The translations under genes were made by a program, and so were the position numbers. A stretch of DNA of 12,240 bases, from contig JAGLYT010000017.1 in the NCBI GenBank assembly GCA_023132075.1, positions 1 to 12,240 of the forward strand. Direction: 5' to 3'. Numbering within the stretch: position 1 is the stretch's first letter; every line of letters begins with the position of its first letter. The notes under the pieces are model-generated. The model saw only the letters and a program-made list of their open reading frames with translations, did no database searches and was not told the DNA's origin. Source of the stretch: JAGLHV01 sp023132075 [NCBI: bacterium]. GTDB lineage: Bacteria; CBDUZB01; JAGLHV01. This document shows, one piece after another, positions 1 through 11,961 of this stretch.

Positions 1-72
1 GTTTGGGTTAATGCCAATAAATTTGCCGGTCCAAGATTTGATACAAAAGGTAATCCTATTACAAGCTGGTAA
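1..72 (+). CDS. 3' end of an unrecognised gene (partial)
   Basis: Frame 1 is open from the window edge to a TAA at 70-72 and encodes the last 23 residues of a protein, ending ...PRFDTKGNPITSW. The tail is too short to assign to a family. It has no hydrophobic segment, so it looks like a soluble C-terminus. Only 17 bases separate its stop from the next start, which suggests that it is the upstream member of the same operon as the glycosidase at 90. The operon promoter would then lie outside the window. Confidence 0.6.
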   Translation, partial: VWVNANKFAGPRFDTKGNPITSW

Positions 73-89
73 AGGGGGATTTTAAAGAA

Positions 90-2228
90 ATGAATTCTGT
101 TAATTTAAAGGATGGTTGTTTTCAGGTCAATGGGAAAAAGCAGTTTATTTTATCGGGAGAAGTGCAATATTTTAGAATTGAAAAAAATAAATGGAGAAAA
201 ATGTTAGATGGTTTGTGTGAGGCAAACTGCAATACTCTTTCTACTTATGTGCCCTGGAATTGGCACGAATATGAACAGGGAAAATTTGATTTTACCGGGA
301 AGACTCATCCCAGCAGAGATTTGGTAAGTTTTTTAAAATTAGTTAAGGAATATGGCTTGAATTTAATTATTAAAGGGGGGCCCCATATTCATGCGGAGTT
401 TTTAAACGGAGGTATTCCCAAATGGGTTCTTTCCGGGTATCCGGAAGTGCTTTGTTTAGATAGTGAAGGAAAACCTACCGGTAGTTATGCTTTTTATCCT
501 CCGGTAACCTATCTTCATCCGACTTATATGCAGTTGGTAAAAAAGTGGTATGAAGCATTTACCGAAGTAGTGCTTCCTTTTGATAATATTATTTTATGGC
601 AGGTAGATAATGAAGTAAGTTATAGTTTGTCTTTTTTTCATTATTCACCCGGACAAGCCTTTTCCGGTGATTATAATCCTTTTCTGGTAGAAAAAAATGG
701 GCTTTATCAACAATATTTAAGTAAGAAATTTAAAGATATAAAGGATTTGAATGCCCGTTACGGAGAGAACAATACGGATTTTACTTTGGTTTCTCCTCCC
801 CGGAAAGAGCCATCTAATAAGGAAGAACAATTTAAAGTTTTTGACTGGTGTGAATTTCGGGAGAAATTAGTGGCAATGTATGTGCGTTCTTTGATGGAGA
901 TGCTTTTTGAGTTAGGCTGCCGGGGCCCTTTCAGTGTTGATGATCCGCTTTTGGGTTATGATACATCATGGAAAGGTATTTATGATGAGGTTAAAGATTC
1001 CCGTTGGCAGGTAGTTATCGGGTATACTTATTATACCGGGAATATGGAAGAGGAATCGATGGGTTATCATCTTTCCCGCATAGAGTTTACCAGGGCTTCA
1101 GGAACCCCGGTGGTTTCCAACCATGAAATTCAGGCGGGAAATGTGTATTTCCTTCCACATTGGAAACAGTCTCCCTCGGATTATGATTTAATCTGGAAAA
1201 CTTCCATAGGGTTTGGCAGCAATATGCTTAATTTTTATTGGTTTTGTGATGGATATAATTTTTTAGGATACGAACATTTTTTACCAAAAATGAATTTTTC
1301 TTCTCCGTTGGATAAGGATGGAAATAAGAGATTTCAATTTGGAATAATTAAAAAAATAGGGGAAATGCTTAAAAAATACCCGGAAATTGTAGAAACTAAA
1401 CCTGATTATGATTTGGCCGTTGGATATTATCACCCCTATGCCCGAATGGGTAAGTTTAGTAATTTAGAGGGAGTAGGTAATTTCGAATTAAGTAAAGGTG
1501 GAGCGGTCGGGTCTTTTATAGATCTTTTAGGGGTGTGTAATATTAATTTTCAAATGCTTAATTTAGAAGAAAACATTAAAGAAAACATCTTTGCCTGTCC
1601 ATCAAAATTAGTTGTTCTTTGTTATGAATTCTTAGATAAAAATATTCAAAAATCTTTGCTTGATTATGTTTCTGCCGGAGGACATTTGATTTTATTAAAC
1701 CAAGTACCTTTAAAGGATGAAAATCTGGGGGAATGTAAGATGTTGTACGATGCTCTAAAAATAGCAAGATTGGATTCTATTCCCAAAGGGAAAGGGTTTT
1801 TTGAAATAAACAGAGTGGGATACAAAAATTATGATTTTTGTGTTTATGATGATTTACAGATATATGAGTTTAATGACCGGGATTATATTCAGGATATGAC
1901 TTCTTTTTCCTCGGGTAGAATATGTGGATTTACCAGGAACGTCGGAGGCGGAAAAATTTCGGTTGTTGGATTTGTTCCCCGGGTTTTTCTGGATGTTTCC
2001 AGAAATTTTGCCCGGGATTATTTTGAAAAAAAATCACGGGATGGGATTTTAGTTTATGAACGGAAAAATAAAGATTTTTCACTTTTTACGGCGTGTAATT
2101 TATCGGAAAAAGAAGAAAAGATAGAAATGAATCAGAAGCAATTTATATTACCTCCCCGTCGAGCGACATTTATTGTTAAAAAAGGTGAAAATTACGAAAA
2201 GTGGGGAGAAGAGCGAACAGGATTATGA
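90..2228 (+). CDS. Divergent GH35/GH42-like beta-glycosidase (clan GH-A)
   Basis: A 712-residue retaining glycosidase, probably exo-acting on a terminal beta-linked sugar such as galactose or glucosamine. The (beta/alpha)8 barrel spans about residues 1-400. Seen in the sequence: the GH35 motif YVPWNWHE (53-60), an altered sugar-binding motif GGPHIHAEF (96-104; usual form PGPYICAEW), the acid/base Glu175 in QVDNE and the probable nucleophile Glu346 in SNHEIQAG. Residues about 440-560 resemble the Rossmann-like trimerisation region of GH42 enzymes, followed by a small C-terminal beta domain. There is no signal peptide, so it is probably cytoplasmic. The start is preceded by AAAGGGGG (71-78). 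The stop overlaps the next gene's ATG, implying translational coupling. Length and mixed GH35/GH42 features also recall archaeal GlmA exo-beta-glucosaminidases. The family is fairly sure; the substrate is not. Confidence 0.82.
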   Translation: MNSVNLKDGCFQVNGKKQFILSGEVQYFRIEKNKWRKMLDGLCEANCNTLSTYVPWNWHEYEQGKFDFTGKTHPSRDLVSFLKLVKEYGLNLIIKGGPHIHAEFLNGGIPKWVLSGYPEVLCLDSEGKPTGSYAFYPPVTYLHPTYMQLVKKWYEAFTEVVLPFDNIILWQVDNEVSYSLSFFHYSPGQAFSGDYNPFLVEKNGLYQQYLSKKFKDIKDLNARYGENNTDFTLVSPPRKEPSNKEEQFKVFDWCEFREKLVAMYVRSLMEMLFELGCRGPFSVDDPLLGYDTSWKGIYDEVKDSRWQVVIGYTYYTGNMEEESMGYHLSRIEFTRASGTPVVSNHEIQAGNVYFLPHWKQSPSDYDLIWKTSIGFGSNMLNFYWFCDGYNFLGYEHFLPKMNFSSPLDKDGNKRFQFGIIKKIGEMLKKYPEIVETKPDYDLAVGYYHPYARMGKFSNLEGVGNFELSKGGAVGSFIDLLGVCNINFQMLNLEENIKENIFACPSKLVVLCYEFLDKNIQKSLLDYVSAGGHLILLNQVPLKDENLGECKMLYDALKIARLDSIPKGKGFFEINRVGYKNYDFCVYDDLQIYEFNDRDYIQDMTSFSSGRICGFTRNVGGGKISVVGFVPRVFLDVSRNFARDYFEKKSRDGILVYERKNKDFSLFTACNLSEKEEKIEMNQKQFILPPRRATFIVKKGENYEKWGEERTGL

Positions 2229-3463
2229 AAAAGATAGATTTAGAAATGTGGGTTATGCCCAATGCGTCTTTTAAGACCGGTTTGACTTTTGGGCAGGAGT
2301 TGAAACATTTTTCAAAAAAATACCCACATATAAATGTAAGGATAAAGGTCCATACATGGTCATCTGCGTGGAGACTTATTATGAAAGCGGTAAGGACCAA
2401 GAAAGGACCGGATGTTTTTCAGCTGGGCAGCAGCTGGGTTAATACTCTTGCTTATTTGGGAGGATTGGCTGATATTAGTAAACCGGTAGAAGAATTAAAA
2501 AAGAAAGATTTTTTTTCTCCTCTTAATAAACAAATGGAAGAATCTTTTAAAGAAGAAAAAATATATTCCCTTCCCTGGTTTATGGATACCAGGATACTTT
2601 TTTATCGAAAAGATATTTTCAAAAAAGCAGGATTGAAAGAAAAAGATATCGGAAATTGGGATTCATTTCAAAAAGCCTGCCAAAAAATAGCGAGCCTTAA
2701 AATAAAAGGGAAAAAAATTTATCCTCTGGCGGTTTCCGGAGCAAAAAGCTGGACGTTAATTCATGATATTGCTCCCTGGATTTGGTCGGGTGGGGGAGAA
2801 TTTTTGAATTTTAGAGGTAAAAAAATAAGTTTTCAACAAAGAGAATCTTTAAAAGGAATGAAATTTTATTTTGACTTGGTTAGGGCTTATGGGAGTAAAA
2901 TTGCCTTAAAGCAAAATATGGGAAAGGTAATGGAGGATTTTTTTATTTACGGGCGTTGTGCGATGCATTTTTCCGGAACATGGGTTTTTTCTGCTTTTCT
3001 TAATCCCAATAGTCATTTGTACCGGGCGGAAATTGCCCAAAATATTGGAATAGCCCTGCCGCCTGCCGGGCCTAAGGGGCGGTATGCTTTTTTGGGTGGA
3101 AGCAATCTGGGGGTTGCTAAATTTTCTAAATATCCCCGGGAAGCATGGGAATTAATTTCTTTTTTAACCTCTCCTTCATCTCAATTACGCTATACAAAAG
3201 CGATTAGTAATCTTCCTGTTCATTCTAAAATATTTGATGCGTTTTTTTTCGAGGATAAACAATTAGCGGAAAAATTTAAACAAATATGTTCTTATGGGAA
3301 GATGTTTCCCCCGGTATTTTCATGGGGGATAATTGAAACAATTATGATGGAAACGCTGGCAGAGATTTTTAATAGTATAAGGAAAGGTCGATACACGGAA
3401 AATCTTCTTAAAAAAGAGATAAAAAAGATTTCTTCCGAAATAAATTTTGTTCTTTCCCTTTAA
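2225..3463 (+). CDS. Family 1 (UgpB/MalE-type) sugar-binding protein lacking a signal peptide
   Basis: A 412-residue protein with the fold signature of ABC-transporter sugar-binding proteins (COG1653 type). Positions from ATG 2225: N-terminal strand with WVMPN, then PDVFQLGSSW (about 62-71), YSLPWFMDT (from 114), LFYRKDIF (from 125), a Trp/Gly-rich WIWSGGGEF (about 185-193) and GRCAMHFSGTW (about 243-253). I chose ATG 2225 because it forms a classic ATGA overlap with the upstream stop. The only other in-frame start is GTG 2201, since a stop lies at 2186-2188. Neither start gives a signal peptide or lipobox: the mature domain begins at once. No permease or ATPase gene is in the window. It could be a cytoplasmic sugar sensor or scavenger, or a transporter component whose export signal was lost. 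Fold assignment is strong; role is open. Confidence 0.85.
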   Translation: MKKIDLEMWVMPNASFKTGLTFGQELKHFSKKYPHINVRIKVHTWSSAWRLIMKAVRTKKGPDVFQLGSSWVNTLAYLGGLADISKPVEELKKKDFFSPLNKQMEESFKEEKIYSLPWFMDTRILFYRKDIFKKAGLKEKDIGNWDSFQKACQKIASLKIKGKKIYPLAVSGAKSWTLIHDIAPWIWSGGGEFLNFRGKKISFQQRESLKGMKFYFDLVRAYGSKIALKQNMGKVMEDFFIYGRCAMHFSGTWVFSAFLNPNSHLYRAEIAQNIGIALPPAGPKGRYAFLGGSNLGVAKFSKYPREAWELISFLTSPSSQLRYTKAISNLPVHSKIFDAFFFEDKQLAEKFKQICSYGKMFPPVFSWGIIETIMMETLAEIFNSIRKGRYTENLLKKEIKKISSEINFVLSL

Positions 3464-3550: not shown

Positions 3551-5011
3551 ATGGCTAAAGAAAGTTTAAATAAATATTCGGAAAAACTCAGGAAGGTTAG
3601 TAAAATCTTTCGTTATACAGAGCCGGATTTGGAAGAAATTCTTAAACAGGTTTTAGCTATTGGATTTTCTACTTTAAGATTTGACTGGATGGAAATATTA
3701 TTATGGGACAGTGAAAGAAAAGTTTTAGAAGTAAAAGTGGTTGCTGAAAAAGACGGGATAATGGAAGGGGAAGAAGAGATTTTTATTTCGGAAAAGACTG
3801 ATCCGAGAATAATAGTGGGTTTAGGCAGGGAAAAGTGTATTGTAAGAAAGAAAAAAGGAGCGGAAGGATTTTTTTCAATAAAAAGCGGTAATAAAATTTT
3901 AGGGGTTTTAGGCATAAATAATCGATTAAGCGGAAGGAATATAAAGGAGTGGCAGATTTCATTACTTAAAGAATATGCTGAAGAAATCGGCGTAGGAATT
4001 GGTAATTTGGAATTACTTTTAAAGGAACAAATGCAGGCAGACAAGTTTAAGGCCCTTTCTAAAATAGGAATGGCCTTAGTAGGGCAATTAAAACTGGAAA
4101 ATAGAATAAAAATAATTTTGCGTAGTGTTATTAAACATTTAAGTATTGAACGGGTTAAATTATACCTGGTGAATGAAGAGAAAAAAGTTCTACAGGGAAC
4201 AATGTCTTTTGATCTCAGAGGGAAATTTCATGTTTTAAAGGAAGTATATTCTTTAAAAAAGAAAACCCATCCTGAAGTTTTTATGGTGATGAAAAAAGAA
4301 GCTCAGGAAGTAGGGTCTTTTGGATTGGTTTTTTCCATTCCTTTGAAAGTAGAAAAAAAAATAGTCGGATTTCTTGTTGCCGATAATATTTTCAGCCGGG
4401 AACGAATTAAAAAAGAAGATATTGAATACTTGAAACTTTTTGCTCAGCAGGCGAGTGTTTCCATAGAAAATGCCCGGCTTTTCAATGATGTCGAGAGGCT
4501 TTCTCTTACCGATGGATTAACAGGTTTATATACTAATAGGTATTTTAGAAAACGTCTTGGAGATGAAATTGTTCGAACGACAAGGCTTAAAACAAAGCTT
4601 GCTTTAGCCATTATTGATATTGACTATTTTAAAAGTTATAATGATTCTTACGGCCACATGGTTGGAGATCGAGTACTTGTTGATTTGGCCGGAATAATTA
4701 TGAAAAATATCCGTCAGGTAGACTTTGCTGCCCGTTATGGAGGGGATGAATTTGTTGTTTTTTTTCCGTCTACCTCTTTAGAAGGTGTGCAAATTGTTAC
4801 TTTTCGTTTATTGAGAGCAATTAGAAAGCATTATTTTCTTATTTCGGGAAAAAAAATAGGGGTTAGTGTAAGTATGGGGTTCGCTATTTATCCCTCTAAT
4901 GCACGAAATAAGGAAGCTTTATTTAGAAAAGCGGATAAAGCTCTTTATCGGGCTAAATCGCAGGGAAGAAATCAGGCTTGTTTTTATTCCGAAACATTGG
5001 ATAAAAAGTAA
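3551..5011 (+). CDS. GAF-GAF-GGDEF diguanylate cyclase
   Basis: A 486-residue soluble protein predicted to make cyclic di-GMP from two GTP. Two GAF-like sensor domains (about 20-155 and 165-310; the second ends in the usual AQQASVSIENARLF helix) lead into a GGDEF domain (about 316-480). The catalytic domain looks complete: SLTDGLTGLYTNRYF at the start, metal-site Asp356 in DIDYF, Asn364, YGHMVGD, the signature GGDEF at 397-401, and ALYRAKSQGRN near the end. RQVD (388-391) lies five residues before GGDEF, the position of the product-inhibition I-site. No membrane segment or signal peptide is present, so the sensed signal should be cytoplasmic; GAF ligands cannot be read from sequence. No EAL domain is present. 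It lies between the binding-protein gene and the GH94 gene, in the same direction but in its own transcription interval. Confidence 0.93.
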   Translation: MAKESLNKYSEKLRKVSKIFRYTEPDLEEILKQVLAIGFSTLRFDWMEILLWDSERKVLEVKVVAEKDGIMEGEEEIFISEKTDPRIIVGLGREKCIVRKKKGAEGFFSIKSGNKILGVLGINNRLSGRNIKEWQISLLKEYAEEIGVGIGNLELLLKEQMQADKFKALSKIGMALVGQLKLENRIKIILRSVIKHLSIERVKLYLVNEEKKVLQGTMSFDLRGKFHVLKEVYSLKKKTHPEVFMVMKKEAQEVGSFGLVFSIPLKVEKKIVGFLVADNIFSRERIKKEDIEYLKLFAQQASVSIENARLFNDVERLSLTDGLTGLYTNRYFRKRLGDEIVRTTRLKTKLALAIIDIDYFKSYNDSYGHMVGDRVLVDLAGIIMKNIRQVDFAARYGGDEFVVFFPSTSLEGVQIVTFRLLRAIRKHYFLISGKKIGVSVSMGFAIYPSNARNKEALFRKADKALYRAKSQGRNQACFYSETLDKK

Positions 5012-5244: not shown

Positions 5245-7596
5245 ATGAAGTATAGTAATTTTAGTAAAGACAGCAAAGAAGTTGTAATTGTAAGACCCGA
5301 TGTTCCCCGACCATGGATTAACTATCTCTATAATGAGGAATATTGTGCTATTGTTTCTCATACTGGGGGAGGCTATAGTTTTGAGCACGATTGTAAAACC
5401 AAAAGAATTACTACCTGGAATCCGGATAATCTTTTTACCGACAGACCGGGTAGATATGTGTTTTTAAAAGATAGGGATACTAAAAAATATTGGTCGATTA
5501 ACTGGCAGCCTATTTGTCCGGAAAAGCAGGATTTTCAATGTCGTCATGGATTAGGCTATACGGTTGTTAGTTCAAAAAATCAAAATATAGAGGGAGAAAT
5601 AACTTATTTTGTTCCCCGCAAAGAACCGATGGAAATCTGGAAGATAAAAATAAGCAATAAAAGTAATAAAAAAAGAAATTTGAGTATGTTTTCCGTGACT
5701 GAGTTAATTTTGGGAGATTTTCAAACGGAATTACTCTATAAAAATATTTTTGCTATGTATAACAAAGCATGGTTTGATAAAAAGATTCAGGCGCTTGTTT
5801 CTACGAAAAACACATGGGGTTGGGGAGGAGGAGTATATCCGCATCAGGCTTATGTAGGAGCGAATTTTAAGATACATGGATGGGAAACGCGCAGAGAAAA
5901 TTTTTACGGTAAATATTTAATTCCTTCCCGTCCGGAGGCGGTACTAAATGGAAAATGTTCTAATACGGACAATTACGGAGAAAATATGGTTTCTGCCCTA
6001 CAGCATAATTTTACACTTAAACCAAATGAGGAAAGAGAATTTGTAATAATGCTGGTTCATGCAAAATCACAGCAGGAAGGGAATAAACTGTTAAAGAAAT
6101 ACCGAAATTTATCGACGGTAGAAAAATCTCTTAAAGAGGTGCGGAATTTCTGGCAGAAATTGGTAGACAAAGTGGAAGTTTCTACCCCTGATAAAAATTT
6201 TGACCGGATGGTAAATGTTTGGAGTAAATACCAACTTTATACTGCTAATACATGGAGCAGATCTCCTTCTTTTTATCATGAAGGGACAGGAGGAAGAGGT
6301 TATCGGGATTCCTGTCAGGATGCAGAGGGAATATTATCCCTTAACTCAGAATATGTAAAGGATAAATTAAGAGCGATTGCTGTTTTGCATTTTAAAGATG
6401 GTCATACGGCTTCCGGTTGGTCGGATCATTACGGCCCTTTTACCGATAGTCCAAGAGCTGATCATCCGGCGTGGTTTACTTACACTTTATCTGCTTATGT
6501 TAAAGAGACCGGGGATGTAGATTTCTTGAATGAGAAGGCGAAATGGCTTGATGGAGGAAAGGGAACAATATTTGAACATGTTTTAGCCAATATTGATTAT
6601 CTCTGGACCCATCGTGGGCAGCACGGTGCTCCTTTAATTGGAATTGCTGACTGGAATGATGCTATTGATAGTGCAGGGGATGAAGGAAAAGGAGAAAGTG
6701 TTTGGTTAGGAATTGCTTTTCACCGATCCCTTCTTTATGCGGCAGAGCTGGCTAAAGTTTTGGGTAAAAGCGATGTTGAAGCAGACCTTTTGAAAAAGGC
6801 AAAAGAAATGAAAAAAATTCTTAATAGTTCTGCCGGTTGGGACGGACGGTGGTTTTTGGGCGGGTATACTGATGAAGGAAAGCCCTTTGGTTCGTCTAAG
6901 AATAAAGAAGGTTCAATTCATATGAACTCTCAAACATGGGCAGTATTGGCTGATGTTTGTGACAATAAAAGAAAAAAGCAGGTAATGTCAATGGTAGATA
7001 AATATTGTGATACAGTCCATGGTCCGGCTTTACTCAGACCGGCTTATAAAAATACGGATTTATCTATCGGAAGAATTACTAAGTTTGCTCCGGGTGTAAA
7101 GGAAAATGGAGCTATTTTCTGTCACGCGGTAGCTTTTAAAATTGTTGCTGATTGTATGGCTGGCCGGGGAAATGAGGCTTTTGATTCTTATCAGAAAATA
7201 AATCCTGCTTGCCAGAAAAACGGATATAAAGTAGAACCTTATGTTTTTGCCGAATACCTGGTGGGCCCGGATCATCCTCATCATTTTGGTGAGGGGGCAT
7301 ATACCTGGATTACAGGGACGGCGGCATGGATGTACTTAGCTGCTACGGAATGGATGTTAGGTGCCCGTCGGGATTTTGAGGGATTACGGATAGATCCTTG
7401 TATTCCTTCTAAATGGGGTAAGTGTTCCATAAAACGTACCTTCAGGGGAGATGTTTATGATATATCCATTAAAAACCCAAAACATGTAAATAAAGGTGTA
7501 AAATCGCTTAAGGTTGATGGTTCCCTGATAAAAGGTAATTTAGTTAAGTATTTTGGTGACGGGAAAACCCATCGTGTAGAAGTGGTAATGGGATAG
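5245..7596 (+). CDS. GH94 family beta-glycoside phosphorylase (cellobiose/chitobiose phosphorylase-like)
   Basis: A 783-residue inverting phosphorylase predicted to cleave a beta-linked disaccharide or oligosaccharide with phosphate, giving an alpha-sugar-1-phosphate. Family features in order: N-terminal beta-sandwich with HTGGGYSFEHD (39-49) and a WSINWQP element; sugar-site GYRDSCQD (352-359); ADWNDA (468-473), where Asp472 should be the general acid; GKGESVW (481-487); GVKENGAIFCHA (617-628) with phosphate-site His627; the TGT triplet 690-692 (Thr690 and Gly691 for phosphate binding); and C-terminal LRIDPCIP (714-721). Length is near the usual 800. There is no signal peptide, as expected for an enzyme using cytoplasmic phosphate. 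The segment at 393-410 (ending ADHPAWF) differs from the usual NDDPLWL of cellobiose phosphorylases, so substrate is uncertain: cellobiose-, chitobiose-, laminaribiose- or sophorose-type links are all possible. It has its own promoter and a strong ribosome site. Confidence 0.92.
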   Translation: MKYSNFSKDSKEVVIVRPDVPRPWINYLYNEEYCAIVSHTGGGYSFEHDCKTKRITTWNPDNLFTDRPGRYVFLKDRDTKKYWSINWQPICPEKQDFQCRHGLGYTVVSSKNQNIEGEITYFVPRKEPMEIWKIKISNKSNKKRNLSMFSVTELILGDFQTELLYKNIFAMYNKAWFDKKIQALVSTKNTWGWGGGVYPHQAYVGANFKIHGWETRRENFYGKYLIPSRPEAVLNGKCSNTDNYGENMVSALQHNFTLKPNEEREFVIMLVHAKSQQEGNKLLKKYRNLSTVEKSLKEVRNFWQKLVDKVEVSTPDKNFDRMVNVWSKYQLYTANTWSRSPSFYHEGTGGRGYRDSCQDAEGILSLNSEYVKDKLRAIAVLHFKDGHTASGWSDHYGPFTDSPRADHPAWFTYTLSAYVKETGDVDFLNEKAKWLDGGKGTIFEHVLANIDYLWTHRGQHGAPLIGIADWNDAIDSAGDEGKGESVWLGIAFHRSLLYAAELAKVLGKSDVEADLLKKAKEMKKILNSSAGWDGRWFLGGYTDEGKPFGSSKNKEGSIHMNSQTWAVLADVCDNKRKKQVMSMVDKYCDTVHGPALLRPAYKNTDLSIGRITKFAPGVKENGAIFCHAVAFKIVADCMAGRGNEAFDSYQKINPACQKNGYKVEPYVFAEYLVGPDHPHHFGEGAYTWITGTAAWMYLAATEWMLGARRDFEGLRIDPCIPSKWGKCSIKRTFRGDVYDISIKNPKHVNKGVKSLKVDGSLIKGNLVKYFGDGKTHRVEVVMG

Positions 7597-7855: not shown

Positions 7856-9160
7856 ATGAAGAAAAAAAGCTTATTATTGTTATTGTCAATCTGCATGACT
7901 TTTTTTTGTGCATTGGAAAGTATTTGGGCCAGGCAGGTTAAAGTTGTTGGTTCTCAGGGAAGTTGGCAGCTTATGGTGGATGGGGCTCCCTTTTATATTA
8001 AAGGGGTTGGTTTTGCTAAAACTGTTCATGCGGGTAATATTGATTATTATTTTAATGAAATGAAGAAAATCGGTTTAAATTCTTTTCGTACCTGGGGGAC
8101 AGGGGATGATACTTCTCTGATGCTGGAAAAAGCGGAAGAATACGGATTGATGGTAGATGTGGGTATTTGGCTCTTACAGAATAAAAAGGGTGAACCTAAA
8201 GCTGTTGATTATGTTAAGGGAGAAAAATATAAAAGAAAGACCCTGAGGGAAATAGAAGAACAGGTAAAAAAGCTTAAAGATTATCCGTCGGTGCTGATGT
8301 GGAATGTAGGAAATGAAGTGGTGATGAGTTTAAAGACGGAAGAGGAAAAAATAGCTTATGCTAAGTTTGTGGAAAAAATTTGTAAACTGATTCATAAAAT
8401 AGATCCCTCTCACCCGATTACTTCTACTACGGCCTGGTCTTTTGCCTGGCCTTATTTTAAAAAATATACTCCCAGCCTGGATATTTATGGGACTAATATT
8501 TACGGTGGAGTAGTAGTGATTAAAGAAGAGTGGGAAAAAATAGGTATAGACAAGCCTTATTTAATAACAGAATATGGACCGCATGGAGAATGGGAAGTTT
8601 CTGTTGATAAGAATGGGCAGCCGATAATTCCTTCCGAAGAAAGTAAAGCTAAAGCGTATTTTAATGGATGGAAGCATTATATTGAAAAAAACAAAGGGCT
8701 AAATCTCGGGGCATATGCGTTTGCTTTTGAGGGGGGTGAAGATTTTTGCGGAGCATGGTTTAATATATTTATGTTGGGCAAGAAAAGAACTTCTTATTGG
8801 AAAATATATGAGATGCTTACGGGGAAAAAAGGTAAAAATAAACCTCCCCTGGTTTGTAAATTTGAATTGAGTAAATTTACTGATATTTATCCGGGAGAGA
8901 ATGTTAATGTCTATCTGGAAGTAAAGGATCCGGATAAGGATAAATTAAACTGTGTTTTTAAAATGTGCAACAGGAAACTTTGGGATGAAGGCATTTATCC
9001 GGTCATATTCGAGAAAAAGAAAAAGAAAGAGTTTGTAATAACTGCACCCGATAAGCCGGGAATATATTTTTTATATGTTTATGTAACTGACGGGAAAGGT
9101 AATATTGCTGTAGAAGGAAAATCGATTAAGATAATAGAGAAAAAGGAGAAAGGTAAATAA
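7856..9160 (+). CDS. Secreted clan GH-A glycoside hydrolase (GH2/GH5-like) with C-terminal Ig-like domain
   Basis: A 434-residue protein with a clear Sec signal peptide: MKKKS, a Leu-rich core and a likely cut after SIWA (about residue 25). The mature protein opens with a short beta segment carrying WQLMVDGAPFYIKGVGF, then a TIM barrel (about 45-320). WNVGNE (149-154) gives acid/base Glu154, and YLITEYGPHGEW (235-246) gives nucleophile Glu239, the arrangement of retaining clan GH-A enzymes. Residues about 330-428 form an Ig/cadherin-like beta-sandwich (DPDKDKL, then APDKPGIYFLYVYVTDGKG). It is much shorter than full GH2 enzymes, lacking their N-terminal jelly-roll and sandwich domains, so GH2-C-like or GH5-like is the best label. 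Substrate unknown; probably a beta-glucan, mannan or galactan. The start has AAAAGGAG seven bases upstream. The stop overlaps the next ATG by one base. It is the only exported enzyme in the window. Confidence 0.85.
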   Translation: MKKKSLLLLLSICMTFFCALESIWARQVKVVGSQGSWQLMVDGAPFYIKGVGFAKTVHAGNIDYYFNEMKKIGLNSFRTWGTGDDTSLMLEKAEEYGLMVDVGIWLLQNKKGEPKAVDYVKGEKYKRKTLREIEEQVKKLKDYPSVLMWNVGNEVVMSLKTEEEKIAYAKFVEKICKLIHKIDPSHPITSTTAWSFAWPYFKKYTPSLDIYGTNIYGGVVVIKEEWEKIGIDKPYLITEYGPHGEWEVSVDKNGQPIIPSEESKAKAYFNGWKHYIEKNKGLNLGAYAFAFEGGEDFCGAWFNIFMLGKKRTSYWKIYEMLTGKKGKNKPPLVCKFELSKFTDIYPGENVNVYLEVKDPDKDKLNCVFKMCNRKLWDEGIYPVIFEKKKKKEFVITAPDKPGIYFLYVYVTDGKGNIAVEGKSIKIIEKKEKGK

Positions 9161-11961
9161 TGGAAAGAAAAAAAATAATTGATTTTGACGAACAAAGTTT
9201 TATTATTAAAGGAAAAAGAGTAATTCTTTTTGGAGGTGAATTTCATTATTTCCGGGTACCGCATGAATTGTGGGATGAGCGGCTAAAAAAAATGAAACAA
9301 GCGGGAGTGAATTTTATTTCAGCCTATATTCCCTGGAATTGGCATGAACCGGAGGAAGGGGTTTATACTTGGGAAGGGGATCACGATTTAGGTAAATTTT
9401 TGGATCTTTGTAAAAAATATAATTTTTATGTTGCCATGAAGCCCGGCCCTTATATTTGTGCTGAATGGGACAATGGGGGGTTTCCTCATTGGATATTGCC
9501 TAAAAATCTAAGGTTGAGATTTTTGGATGATGAGTATCTTTCCTATGTAAAGAAATGGTATAAGGAAGTGGGGAGAGTGATTAAGCCTTATTTAATTACC
9601 AATTCCGGAGGGCCGGTAATTCTTTTTCAGATAGAAAACGAATATGACCATTTAATTGAACAACAAAGAGATGTAATTGTTACCAAGGAAGATGCCAAAA
9701 AGTACTTGATGTCTCTTTTAAAATATACACGAATGGCTGGAGTAGATGTTCCTGCTTTTACTAACGAAGCTTGTTTTATTCACGGAACGGAAATTATTGA
9801 AACCAGAACTTTTTATCCCAATATTCCCTGGCTGTGGATGTGGGAATTCGATGATTTTGATAAAAAAATAAAGCAGGCAAAAAAAGGACAGCCGGATAAA
9901 CCTGTTTGTATTTTTGAGCTTCAGGGAGGATGGTTTGCTCAATTCGGACAGCCCATATATAATGTGCCTTCTTCCTTAACCAATGCCATTGTGCGTAATG
10001 TTTTGGCACGCAATGCATGTTTACTTAATATATTTATGTTTGTTGGAGGAACAACTTTTCCTTATTGGGGTTGCCGCGGAGATGCCCGGGGTAGTGGAAG
10101 TATGGATGCGATTGGTTCTGTAACCAGTTATGATTTCGGTTGTTCTCCTATTCGGGAATGGGGACAATTAAGTGAAAAATATTATGATTTAAAGTCAACT
10201 GCAATGTTTTTAAAAGCGTTTCCTAAACTTTTTGTAGAAACGAAAGAGGTTATTAACGGGGCAAAAATTGTTCAGGGGGTAGAGGGAACACATGTAATAA
10301 AGGAAAATAAAGTATTTTCCGGCGGGGAATTTGCTGAAGTTTATGAAAAAGTAATGGTATTGGAAAAAGCAAACAAATCTTCCGGTTTATTGTTGGTTAG
10401 AAATACGGAAACTTCCGATAAAAATTTAGTGATTAGTTATAAAGTTCCGGGAACCCAAAAAGAACGATTGTTACCCAAAGAGGGAAAATTATTTATTCCT
10501 CGGGAAACAGCTTATTTATTACCCATAGAAGTAAAGATTCCTAATACGAATTTAGTTGTCCAGCATTCAACTTCGGAGATTTTAACTTCCAGGCAGGTGG
10601 GTAAAAATCAGATATTCTTTTTATATGGGACAAAGGGAAGAAAAGGGGAAGTAGTTATTCGTGGAGTAAAACGCGCTCCTAAAACAATAAAAGGAAAGAT
10701 GAAACATACATTACGGGATAATGTTCTTCATTTATCCTATATCCATAAAGATATTCAAATGGTAGCGTTAGAAGGGGTGATAATAGTAATTCTTGATTTT
10801 GAGAGAGCCCGGAATACCTGGCCGGGTTCGAAGGAAAGTATTTTAATTTCTCAGGCCTATTGTCTTATGGATAGCGGCCAGTCCAAAAAAGATTTAAATT
10901 TACGTTTGCAGGTTTTAAACGGTACGGCAAACAATAATTTAATATTTTTACCGTCAAAACCGAATAAAGTACTGGTAGAAGGGAAAACCGTTTCTTTTAA
11001 ATGGGATAAAACTTTCTCCTGTATTTCTTTCGTAGTAAAAGTGAAAAAAGAAAAACCGGTGAGTATTAAAAAAGATGACTTTTGTTATGTTTTACCGGAT
11101 AATAAAGAGAAAGAATTTGATTATGACGACAGCAATTGGAAATTGTTACCTGAACCTGTAGCCCTGGAAGATATTAGCATGGCAGACCATGGATTTGTTT
11201 GGTATAGAACGGACTTTTCAGTTTCAGACGAAATAGAAGATGCCCTGATTGTTTTTGACACAGGGGGTGTTGACCGGGCCTATGTATACTTAAACGGAGA
11301 ATTTTTATGGAAGGGAATTGGAGAGGCAAAAATTGAAGTTCCCGGGAAATTTCGGCAGGGGAAAAATGTTTTAGCGGTTAGGTATGAAAATGCTTTTCAT
11401 ACAAAAGGTCATCCTGCAGAAGGGCCTATCCATAAAAAAAGCGGTATTAAAAAACCGGTAGTAATTTGTGGAAGGGTAAATGATGAGGAATGGGAAAAAG
11501 AGATAAAGAGTTTTCGTGTGCGTTTAAAACTGGGAGGAGTCACCAAAGGATTTGCTAAAAATGAATTTGATGATAGTAAATGGATTAAGGTTCCACGAGG
11601 GGAAAAATATATTTTTCACAAAGATATGGGGGACCTGGTTTGGGTTAGGCAGCGGGTTAAATTTAAAAAGGAGAAAGGGTGGACAGCACCTTTGGGTTTA
11701 TTTATCTCCGAAGCCGCAGAAAGAATGATTATTTATCTTAATGGAAAAGCATTAGGAAAATATGAAAATATTGGGCCGCAGCATAAATTTTATATCCCCG
11801 AATCGATGTTAAAAGAAGACAATGTTTTTAGTTTTATTTTAGAAGGCCCGGGGTTTAATCAGTTTAAACCGAGTGAATTTAAACCGCCTTATTTGAAAGA
11901 ACCGATAATAGAGGATTTTTTTGAAGCCAGGGAATTAGAAGTTAAAATCTGTAGAAGTTAA
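9160..11961 (+). CDS. GH35 beta-galactosidase, large multidomain form
   Basis: A 933-residue retaining exo-glycosidase predicted to remove terminal beta-galactosyl (or related) residues. The TIM barrel covers about residues 10-350. It carries GGEFHYFRVP (25-34), YIPWNWHEPEEG (56-67) and the canonical PGPYICAEWDNGGFPHW (95-111). GGPVILFQIENEY (150-162) matches the PROSITE GH35 signature exactly; Glu161 is the acid/base and Glu253 in FELQGGW the nucleophile. A beta-rich middle section (about 375-640) resembles bacterial GH35 accessory domains. Two similar galactose-binding-type jelly-rolls follow, at about 650-750 and 800-925, each opening with an F-D-D-S-x-W-like motif. No signal peptide, so probably cytoplasmic. 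TAATG overlap with the upstream hydrolase and ribosome-site purines at 9144-9153 indicate translational coupling. Exo-activity on beta-glucosamine or arabinoside is an alternative. Confidence 0.92.
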   Translation: MERKKIIDFDEQSFIIKGKRVILFGGEFHYFRVPHELWDERLKKMKQAGVNFISAYIPWNWHEPEEGVYTWEGDHDLGKFLDLCKKYNFYVAMKPGPYICAEWDNGGFPHWILPKNLRLRFLDDEYLSYVKKWYKEVGRVIKPYLITNSGGPVILFQIENEYDHLIEQQRDVIVTKEDAKKYLMSLLKYTRMAGVDVPAFTNEACFIHGTEIIETRTFYPNIPWLWMWEFDDFDKKIKQAKKGQPDKPVCIFELQGGWFAQFGQPIYNVPSSLTNAIVRNVLARNACLLNIFMFVGGTTFPYWGCRGDARGSGSMDAIGSVTSYDFGCSPIREWGQLSEKYYDLKSTAMFLKAFPKLFVETKEVINGAKIVQGVEGTHVIKENKVFSGGEFAEVYEKVMVLEKANKSSGLLLVRNTETSDKNLVISYKVPGTQKERLLPKEGKLFIPRETAYLLPIEVKIPNTNLVVQHSTSEILTSRQVGKNQIFFLYGTKGRKGEVVIRGVKRAPKTIKGKMKHTLRDNVLHLSYIHKDIQMVALEGVIIVILDFERARNTWPGSKESILISQAYCLMDSGQSKKDLNLRLQVLNGTANNNLIFLPSKPNKVLVEGKTVSFKWDKTFSCISFVVKVKKEKPVSIKKDDFCYVLPDNKEKEFDYDDSNWKLLPEPVALEDISMADHGFVWYRTDFSVSDEIEDALIVFDTGGVDRAYVYLNGEFLWKGIGEAKIEVPGKFRQGKNVLAVRYENAFHTKGHPAEGPIHKKSGIKKPVVICGRVNDEEWEKEIKSFRVRLKLGGVTKGFAKNEFDDSKWIKVPRGEKYIFHKDMGDLVWVRQRVKFKKEKGWTAPLGLFISEAAERMIIYLNGKALGKYENIGPQHKFYIPESMLKEDNVFSFILEGPGFNQFKPSEFKPPYLKEPIIEDFFEARELEVKICRS

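Follow-up and report, generated by a model that had tools for sequence, protein, structure and literature searches.

A solute-binding protein without a leader, encoded next to a diguanylate cyclase gene: a candidate cytoplasmic oligosaccharide sensor

The solute-binding protein (SBP) encoded at positions 2225-3463 of contig JAGLYT010000017.1 (bacterium JAGLHV01 sp023132075, assembly GCA_023132075.1) has no export leader. It belongs to a single clade of leaderless SBPs, is under purifying selection, keeps its sugar-stacking residues and is paired, in two phyla, with a gene of the GGDEF family. The contig was analysed over its entire length of 12,240 nucleotides (the window) and is one of 389 contigs of a 1.87 Mb genome. 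On balance we judge it probable, if not by a wide measure, that this protein is a cytoplasmic oligosaccharide sensor, which would derive from an exported cellodextrin-type SBP that lost its leader and would act by contact on the cyclase encoded beside it.

Export was judged by reading frame and by hydropathy, taken as the best mean over 12 residues within the first 45. The SBP frame ends at 3463 and encodes 412 amino acids from ATG 2225 or 420 from GTG 2201. Upstream it is closed by stops at 2177-2179 and 2186-2188, therefore only these two starts are available. In the window genome the ATG overlaps the stop codon of the preceding glycosidase gene (90-2228) in the sequence ATGA. The sequence-only reading of this DNA had described the gene, the overlap, the stop at 2186-2188 and the GTG as the only alternative start, and all were seen in the window. 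Its statement that no room is left for an export signal was borne out as well, the frame being closed and no hydrophobic stretch following either start. The N-terminus reached a hydropathy of 0.36 from the ATG and 0.58 from the GTG, compared to ∼3.0-3.1 in lipoprotein SBPs of two sister genomes. The protein matched the Pfam families SBP_bac_1 (1.8e-34) and SBP_bac_8 (2.4e-32), and the Sec or lipoprotein leader typical of SBPs of the CbpB/betaGlyBP type is absent by frame and hydropathy alike.

The corresponding SBPs of the sister genomes (L035, 86% identity; L036, 94%) also have stops just upstream in frame and start at the same position of the mature domain. Close relatives thus lack an export signal as well, and since both share these stops and this start, a sequencing error that hides a longer frame is very unlikely. 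The translational coupling to the glycosidase did not hold up as a general feature: in both sister genomes the glycosidase gene ends, stop codon included, 8 nt ahead of the SBP ATG, and the overlap is peculiar to the window genome among the three. Pairwise ratios of nonsynonymous to synonymous substitution (omega) within the window genus were 0.083-0.121 for the SBP, 0.082-0.090 for the glycosidase and 0.098-0.130 for the cyclase, which indicates that the SBP is under purifying selection. Taken from reading frame and hydropathy, a cytoplasmic location of the SBP is well supported.

The best structural matches were, nearly end to end, CbpB of Clostridium thermocellum (PDB 7x0i, 3.3e-71) and betaGlyBP of Thermus thermophilus (7c63, 4.6e-64), which are cellodextrin- and beta-glucoside-binding proteins of ATP-binding cassette (ABC) importers. 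The consulted part of PMC9601137 gives dissociation constants of CbpB for cellodextrins from 0.56 to 1.9 µM (cellobiose 1.9 µM, cellotetraose 0.56 µM), the sugar rings being stacked on W90 and W296. Both tryptophans are kept in the window SBP as W45 and W253, and a single numbering offset, 48, places both on the chain sequence as printed and on these window residues. Despite the near full-length homology, the window SBP differs from these proteins in that it has no leader, is paired with a diguanylate cyclase and, in the window genus, is not the SBP that accompanies the importer genes. A beta-glucoside ligand is a reasonable inference for the window SBP, because the protein is CbpB/betaGlyBP-like with both tryptophans and because the GH94 (glycoside hydrolase family 94) protein encoded downstream is closest to cellobiose phosphorylase. 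The GH94 gene is a context that fits intracellular beta-glucosides.

The distribution of leaderless copies was determined by profile searches. Among 386 genomes searched, 32 had matches, 42 in total, and all 42 were read: 11, from seven genomes, were leaderless and 31 had leaders. The seven matches read later all had leaders, among them L168 with a weak one (hydropathy 1.57) and a broken frame. A second broad search of 385 genomes, a sample largely the same, revealed no new lineage. Three more genomes with leaderless copies came from searches among sampled genomes of two further phyla; the distribution is thus known for the 386-genome sample and the genomes sampled in these two phyla. From a 60-genome search with many weaker matches, those given a locus were read. 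A uniform script, using a profile built from 11 leaderless members, was then run over the fetched loci and returned 77 distinct SBP matches. Twenty-six of these are leaderless (416-648 bits, no more than 10 residues ahead of the domain, hydropathy ≤1.46). The other 51 reach 376 bits at most; 50 of them show a hydrophobic N-terminus (≥1.93), the remaining one being truncated. The 26 leaderless SBPs come from ten genomes of three phyla: three from the window genus (f1), two from f115, four from f198 and one from f261. By the phylum queries, f115 and f198/f261 fall in two phyla, and f1 is listed in neither.

A tree was calculated from 45 of the 77 matches, comprising every leaderless SBP and 19 of the other 51, with CbpB and betaGlyBP left out. 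All 26 leaderless proteins, including the 11 of the 386-genome search, lie on one side of a branch (support 97/98) among leadered relatives. One loss of the leader suffices to explain this grouping, and the leader was probably lost once in the clade. Omega was calculated for 11 chosen pairs (ten SBP, one cyclase). One SBP pair was saturated in synonymous divergence (dS) and gave no value; the nine measurable SBP pairs, from f198, f115 and f261, had values of 0.04-0.22, two of them at dS above 1.8. G390 (f261, genome of ∼1.3 Mb) has nine leaderless SBPs, six head to tail on one contig (L113:288-8040, minus strand) and three on another (L114:5633-9362, minus strand). Neither contig has a permease match, and in these nine copies the W253 position is leucine in eight and histidine in one. 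A third contig of this genome carries three ordinary leadered SBPs with permease genes. Candidates for cytoplasmic fusions were selected by open-frame length and three were read, none of which qualified: G031 is an SBP-permease fusion with a leader, G027 an overlapping long frame, and G015 has an added N-terminal domain behind a leader.

The gene downstream of the window SBP (3551-5011) is predicted to encode a soluble diguanylate cyclase. The GG(D/E)EF and RxxD motifs have established roles in such enzymes; GGDEF and RxxD are both intact here, within a PF00990 match. The N-terminal GAF_3 match is weak (1.4e-4, below the family cut-off). No membrane segment was found, as no stretch of 19 residues has a mean hydropathy above 1.4. 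In the f115 genomes G116 and G253 a GAF-GGDEF gene likewise lies 3' of the leaderless SBP gene, 85 and 9 bases on, in the same order as in the window. Between f115 and the window pair, the SBPs are 37% identical over 418 positions and the cyclases 38% over 477, with the N-terminal GAF-like part included; the 38% refers to the cyclase beside the leaderless SBP of locus L076. No transporter, glycosidase or sugar gene was recognised, mostly by eye, beside the pair in G116 and G253. SBP and cyclase thus adjoin in five of the ten genomes with leaderless SBPs, in two phyla. Because each of the five genomes with the pair has only five to eight GGDEF matches (7-8 in f1, 5 in f115), adjacency by chance in two phyla is very unlikely, assuming about one gene per kb. 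Further support comes from a cyclase tree, in which the f1, f115 and f198 homologues lie on one side of a branch (100/98) versus ten other GGDEF proteins; from the twelve further loci, L129 (the G392 homologue) and L139 were left out, having no GGDEF-type motif by script.

We propose that the leader of an exported cellodextrin-type SBP was lost, probably in a single event, and that the protein may thereby have become a cytoplasmic sugar receptor. An oligosaccharide, most likely of the beta-linked glucose type, would enter through an importer, and the cytoplasmic SBP would close around it. Its closed or its open form would alter the GAF domains of the cyclase through contact, and the output of cyclic di-GMP (c-di-GMP) would then follow the intracellular supply of oligosaccharide. 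The ligand, the contact between SBP and cyclase and the sign of regulation are what we infer, and gene association suggests the control of c-di-GMP by the SBP. For the clade as a whole we suggest, tentatively and as something possible rather than probable, that its members are inward-turned, leaderless Venus-flytrap sugar receptors which report intracellular oligosaccharides to c-di-GMP signalling by stand-alone contact, and that the paralogue runs of one phylum, up to six genes long and with diverged pockets, would form an intracellular glycan-sensing repertoire.

Several observations weigh against this reading. That a long cyclase homologue occurs in nine of the ten genomes with leaderless SBPs and in none of the five searched without them speaks for the pairing, yet this count is small and not phylogenetically independent, the query alignment was built from four of these same nine genomes, and two of the nine matches (G001, G392) are cut by contig ends. 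The exception, G390, has nine leaderless copies and only a partial cyclase match (positions 246-481). In f198 the cyclase homologue is not linked to any SBP. In the three copies read (L141:6969-8402, minus strand; L142:5279-6799, minus; L143:6547-8013, plus) the GGDEF motif is degenerate, reading EGDGI or EGDGV, and RxxD is kept. In G368 the homologue shares a gene run with response-regulator-like proteins (by eye), with a GAF histidine kinase and with a pilus-type T2SSE ATPase that has an MshEN domain; the runs of G240 and G391 are similar (by eye). The f198 homologue may act not as a cyclase but as a c-di-GMP receptor, possibly of a type IV pilus. The SBP tree groups f1 with f115 at modest support (88/80), and its root rests on one long-branch row. 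W45 is invariant in the clade (26/26) and W253 is a tryptophan in only 11 of 26, so the ligands probably differ and the pockets have probably diverged. An AlphaFold model of the SBP, made with five sequences, had a mean predicted local distance difference test (pLDDT) score of 42 and was not used.

One of the five genomes without a leaderless SBP, G387, is of the same genus as G116; neither SBP nor cyclase was found in this 81% complete genome. In f198, a GAF-HD-GYP gene is divergent from and adjacent to the leaderless SBP gene in G391 and G392 (L116:12559-13689 and L119:6312-7427, both plus strand). There was none at the same place in G240 and G368, that is two of four related genomes have it, and each genome has 15-16 HD_5 matches. 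This adjacency was therefore given little weight and is suggestive only. A PAS-GGDEF-HD-GYP gene of f198 was not counted as a neighbour, being five genes away from the SBP.

The sequence-only reading had emphasised the glycosidase, and a cytoplasmic carrier or enzyme partner that hands imported oligosaccharide to the glycosidase or to the GH94 phosphorylase, with no signalling, would fit the window genus: the leaderless glycosidase adjoins the SBP in L035 and L036 as well, hence in all three genomes of the genus, and the GH94 gene follows downstream. However, in the remaining seven genomes, where selected neighbours were checked with Pfam and the rest by eye, no glycosidase was recognised beside leaderless SBPs, the cyclase adjoins in five of ten genomes and two phyla as against three of ten and one genus for the glycosidase, and in the runs of six and of three SBPs the copies follow each other with no enzyme gene in between. 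The emphasis on the glycosidase is not supported, the partner that matters is probably another, and we regard the carrier function as unlikely. The glycosidase itself is closest to GLMA-type enzymes (5gsl, 2.8e-80); a beta-1,2-glucosyltransferase (7vkw, 8.3e-59) is also among its matches, so that a beta-1,2-linked sugar is one possible substrate.

The importer genes bear on two further explanations. In L036, the run upstream of the glycosidase encodes a protein without Pfam match, MalF-like and MalG-like permeases, a lipoprotein SBP and a pseudopilin-like protein; in L035 this run is seen only from the MalG-like gene onwards. The window contig begins inside a pseudopilin-like gene, the one found ahead of the glycosidase in L035 and L036, and the upstream importer genes thus lie outside the window. 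The lipoprotein SBP of the run is closest to an arabino-oligosaccharide-binding protein (2.8e-47), is 26% identical to the leaderless SBP and belongs to a different subfamily. G001 and G002 have two SBP_bac_1 matches each, the importer lipoprotein and the leaderless SBP; the window genome has the leaderless SBP only, as expected if the rest of the gene run lies beyond the contig end. In other lineages no permease was seen near the leaderless genes. Of the 23 leaderless genes outside the window genus, only one, in G368, has a BPD_transp_1 match on its contig, and that lies ∼45 kb off; this check covers the extent of each contig, several of which are short (4.6-10.7 kb), and includes the 593 kb contig of G253, where no permease match was found. 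The view that the protein is a sensor rather than a transporter subunit therefore stands as far as location and context are concerned, with a leaderless clade of 26 in three phyla and no permease seen close by outside the genus. For permeases nearby the picture is mixed, as they do lie upstream in the same run of both sister genomes (MalG-like in both, MalF-like seen in L036 only) together with a lipoprotein SBP of their own.

A regulator that binds imported sugar inside the cell and inhibits or tunes the upstream ABC importer would account for the shared run in L035 and L036. We consider this rather improbable, as permease matches outside the genus lie on other contigs or 45 kb off, and the importer has its own lipoprotein SBP with the arabino-oligosaccharide binder as its closest match. 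Still less probable is export by a route without a classical leader, by which the SBP would serve as a second binding protein for the importer. It would agree with the position in the same run as the permeases and with a binding-protein sequence kept over the whole length; however, all 26 clade members begin at the mature domain or no more than 10 residues ahead of it, strong lipoprotein leaders mark the importer SBPs of both sister genomes, and no distant member was seen near a permease. Finally, a functionless decaying duplicate or a gene-calling artefact is hardly credible: loss of the leader could be a first step of decay, but omega values of 0.04-0.22 and one clade with intact frames in three phyla speak strongly against it.

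A cytoplasmic SBP acting on a cyclase would have partial parallels among known systems. MbaA-type partner enzymes are membrane receptors. In the NspS-MbaA system, in the portions of the literature consulted, a periplasmic polyamine-binding SBP works with a c-di-GMP enzyme. This system and the SBP-activated receptors resemble the window pair in that a solute-binding protein is teamed with a c-di-GMP enzyme, in the window by gene association. Unlike NspS-MbaA, with its periplasmic SBP and membrane-bound enzyme, both window proteins are predicted to be soluble proteins of the cytoplasm, and the SBP comes from a sugar-binding family. The SBP fold also serves as a cytosolic sensor in SgrR and in GntR-SBP fusions, where it is fused to DNA-binding domains. 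The intracellular sensor use is the same, and the window SBP differs in being a separate, single-domain protein. SBP-activated cyclases and phosphodiesterases exist, and cytosolic proteins with SBP signatures made up ∼1% of those retrieved, according to the part of PMC9602780 consulted; SBP-fold proteins without a leader are for this reason not unheard of. In a review of c-di-GMP sensing, as far as the consulted part goes, the sugar entries of a table act via the phosphotransferase system (PTS) protein EIIAGlc, and where c-di-GMP proteins contain domains of the periplasmic-binding-protein clan, the review places these in the periplasm (PMC8846402). No description of a leaderless sugar-SBP clade or of its pairing with a soluble cyclase was found in a literature search that left most subscription papers outside its reach, which makes this a weak negative.

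If the proposed sensor function is true, a soluble SBP together with a soluble cyclase lets cells gauge imported rather than outside glycan. The SBP-cyclase pair would then be a testable two-gene sensor and could be used in reporters. The annotation 'extracellular solute-binding protein' is probably wrong for the whole leaderless clade.

Table 1. Features of the window (contig JAGLYT010000017.1).
Feature	Positions	Strand	Evidence
3' end of pseudopilin-like gene	1-72	+	C-terminal peptide identical to pilin-like open reading frames of L035/L036 (N_methyl in L036)
GH35/GH42-type glycosidase (GLMA-like), no hydrophobic N-terminus, directly 5' of the SBP	90-2228	+	PDB 5gsl 2.8e-80
In-frame stops TAA 2177-2179 and TGA 2186-2188, excluding a longer SBP frame	2177-2188	+	reading frame
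Leaderless SBP, 412 amino acids, CbpB/betaGlyBP-like; possible GTG start at 2201	2225-3463	+	SBP_bac_1, PDB matches, hydropathy
Predicted GAF-like + GAF + GGDEF diguanylate cyclase, 486 amino acids, proposed SBP partner	3551-5011	+	Pfam, motifs, hydropathy, 38% identity to the L076 cyclase
GH94 phosphorylase (cellobiose-phosphorylase-like), no hydrophobic N-terminus	5245-7596	+	Glyco_hydro_94 1.4e-107; PDB 3qde (cellobiose phosphorylase) 2.8e-150
Glycosidase-like protein (GH2-C TIM barrel), hydrophobic N-terminus	7856-9160	+	hydropathy 2.67
GH35 beta-galactosidase-like protein	9160-11961	+	Glyco_hydro_35 4e-85

Two minor observations concern the sister genomes. The record that holds L036 and L045 (JAUVLC010000026.1) is titled 'Clostridia bacterium', yet it encodes outer-membrane-barrel-like proteins (by eye) and pilin-like proteins, and the label may be wrong. 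The pseudopilin-like gene lies inside the importer/glycosidase run (L036:5234-5848, plus strand, N_methyl; L035:2428-3048, plus strand; window 1-72), and its omega between L035 and L036 is 0.18, above that of the neighbouring genes measured.

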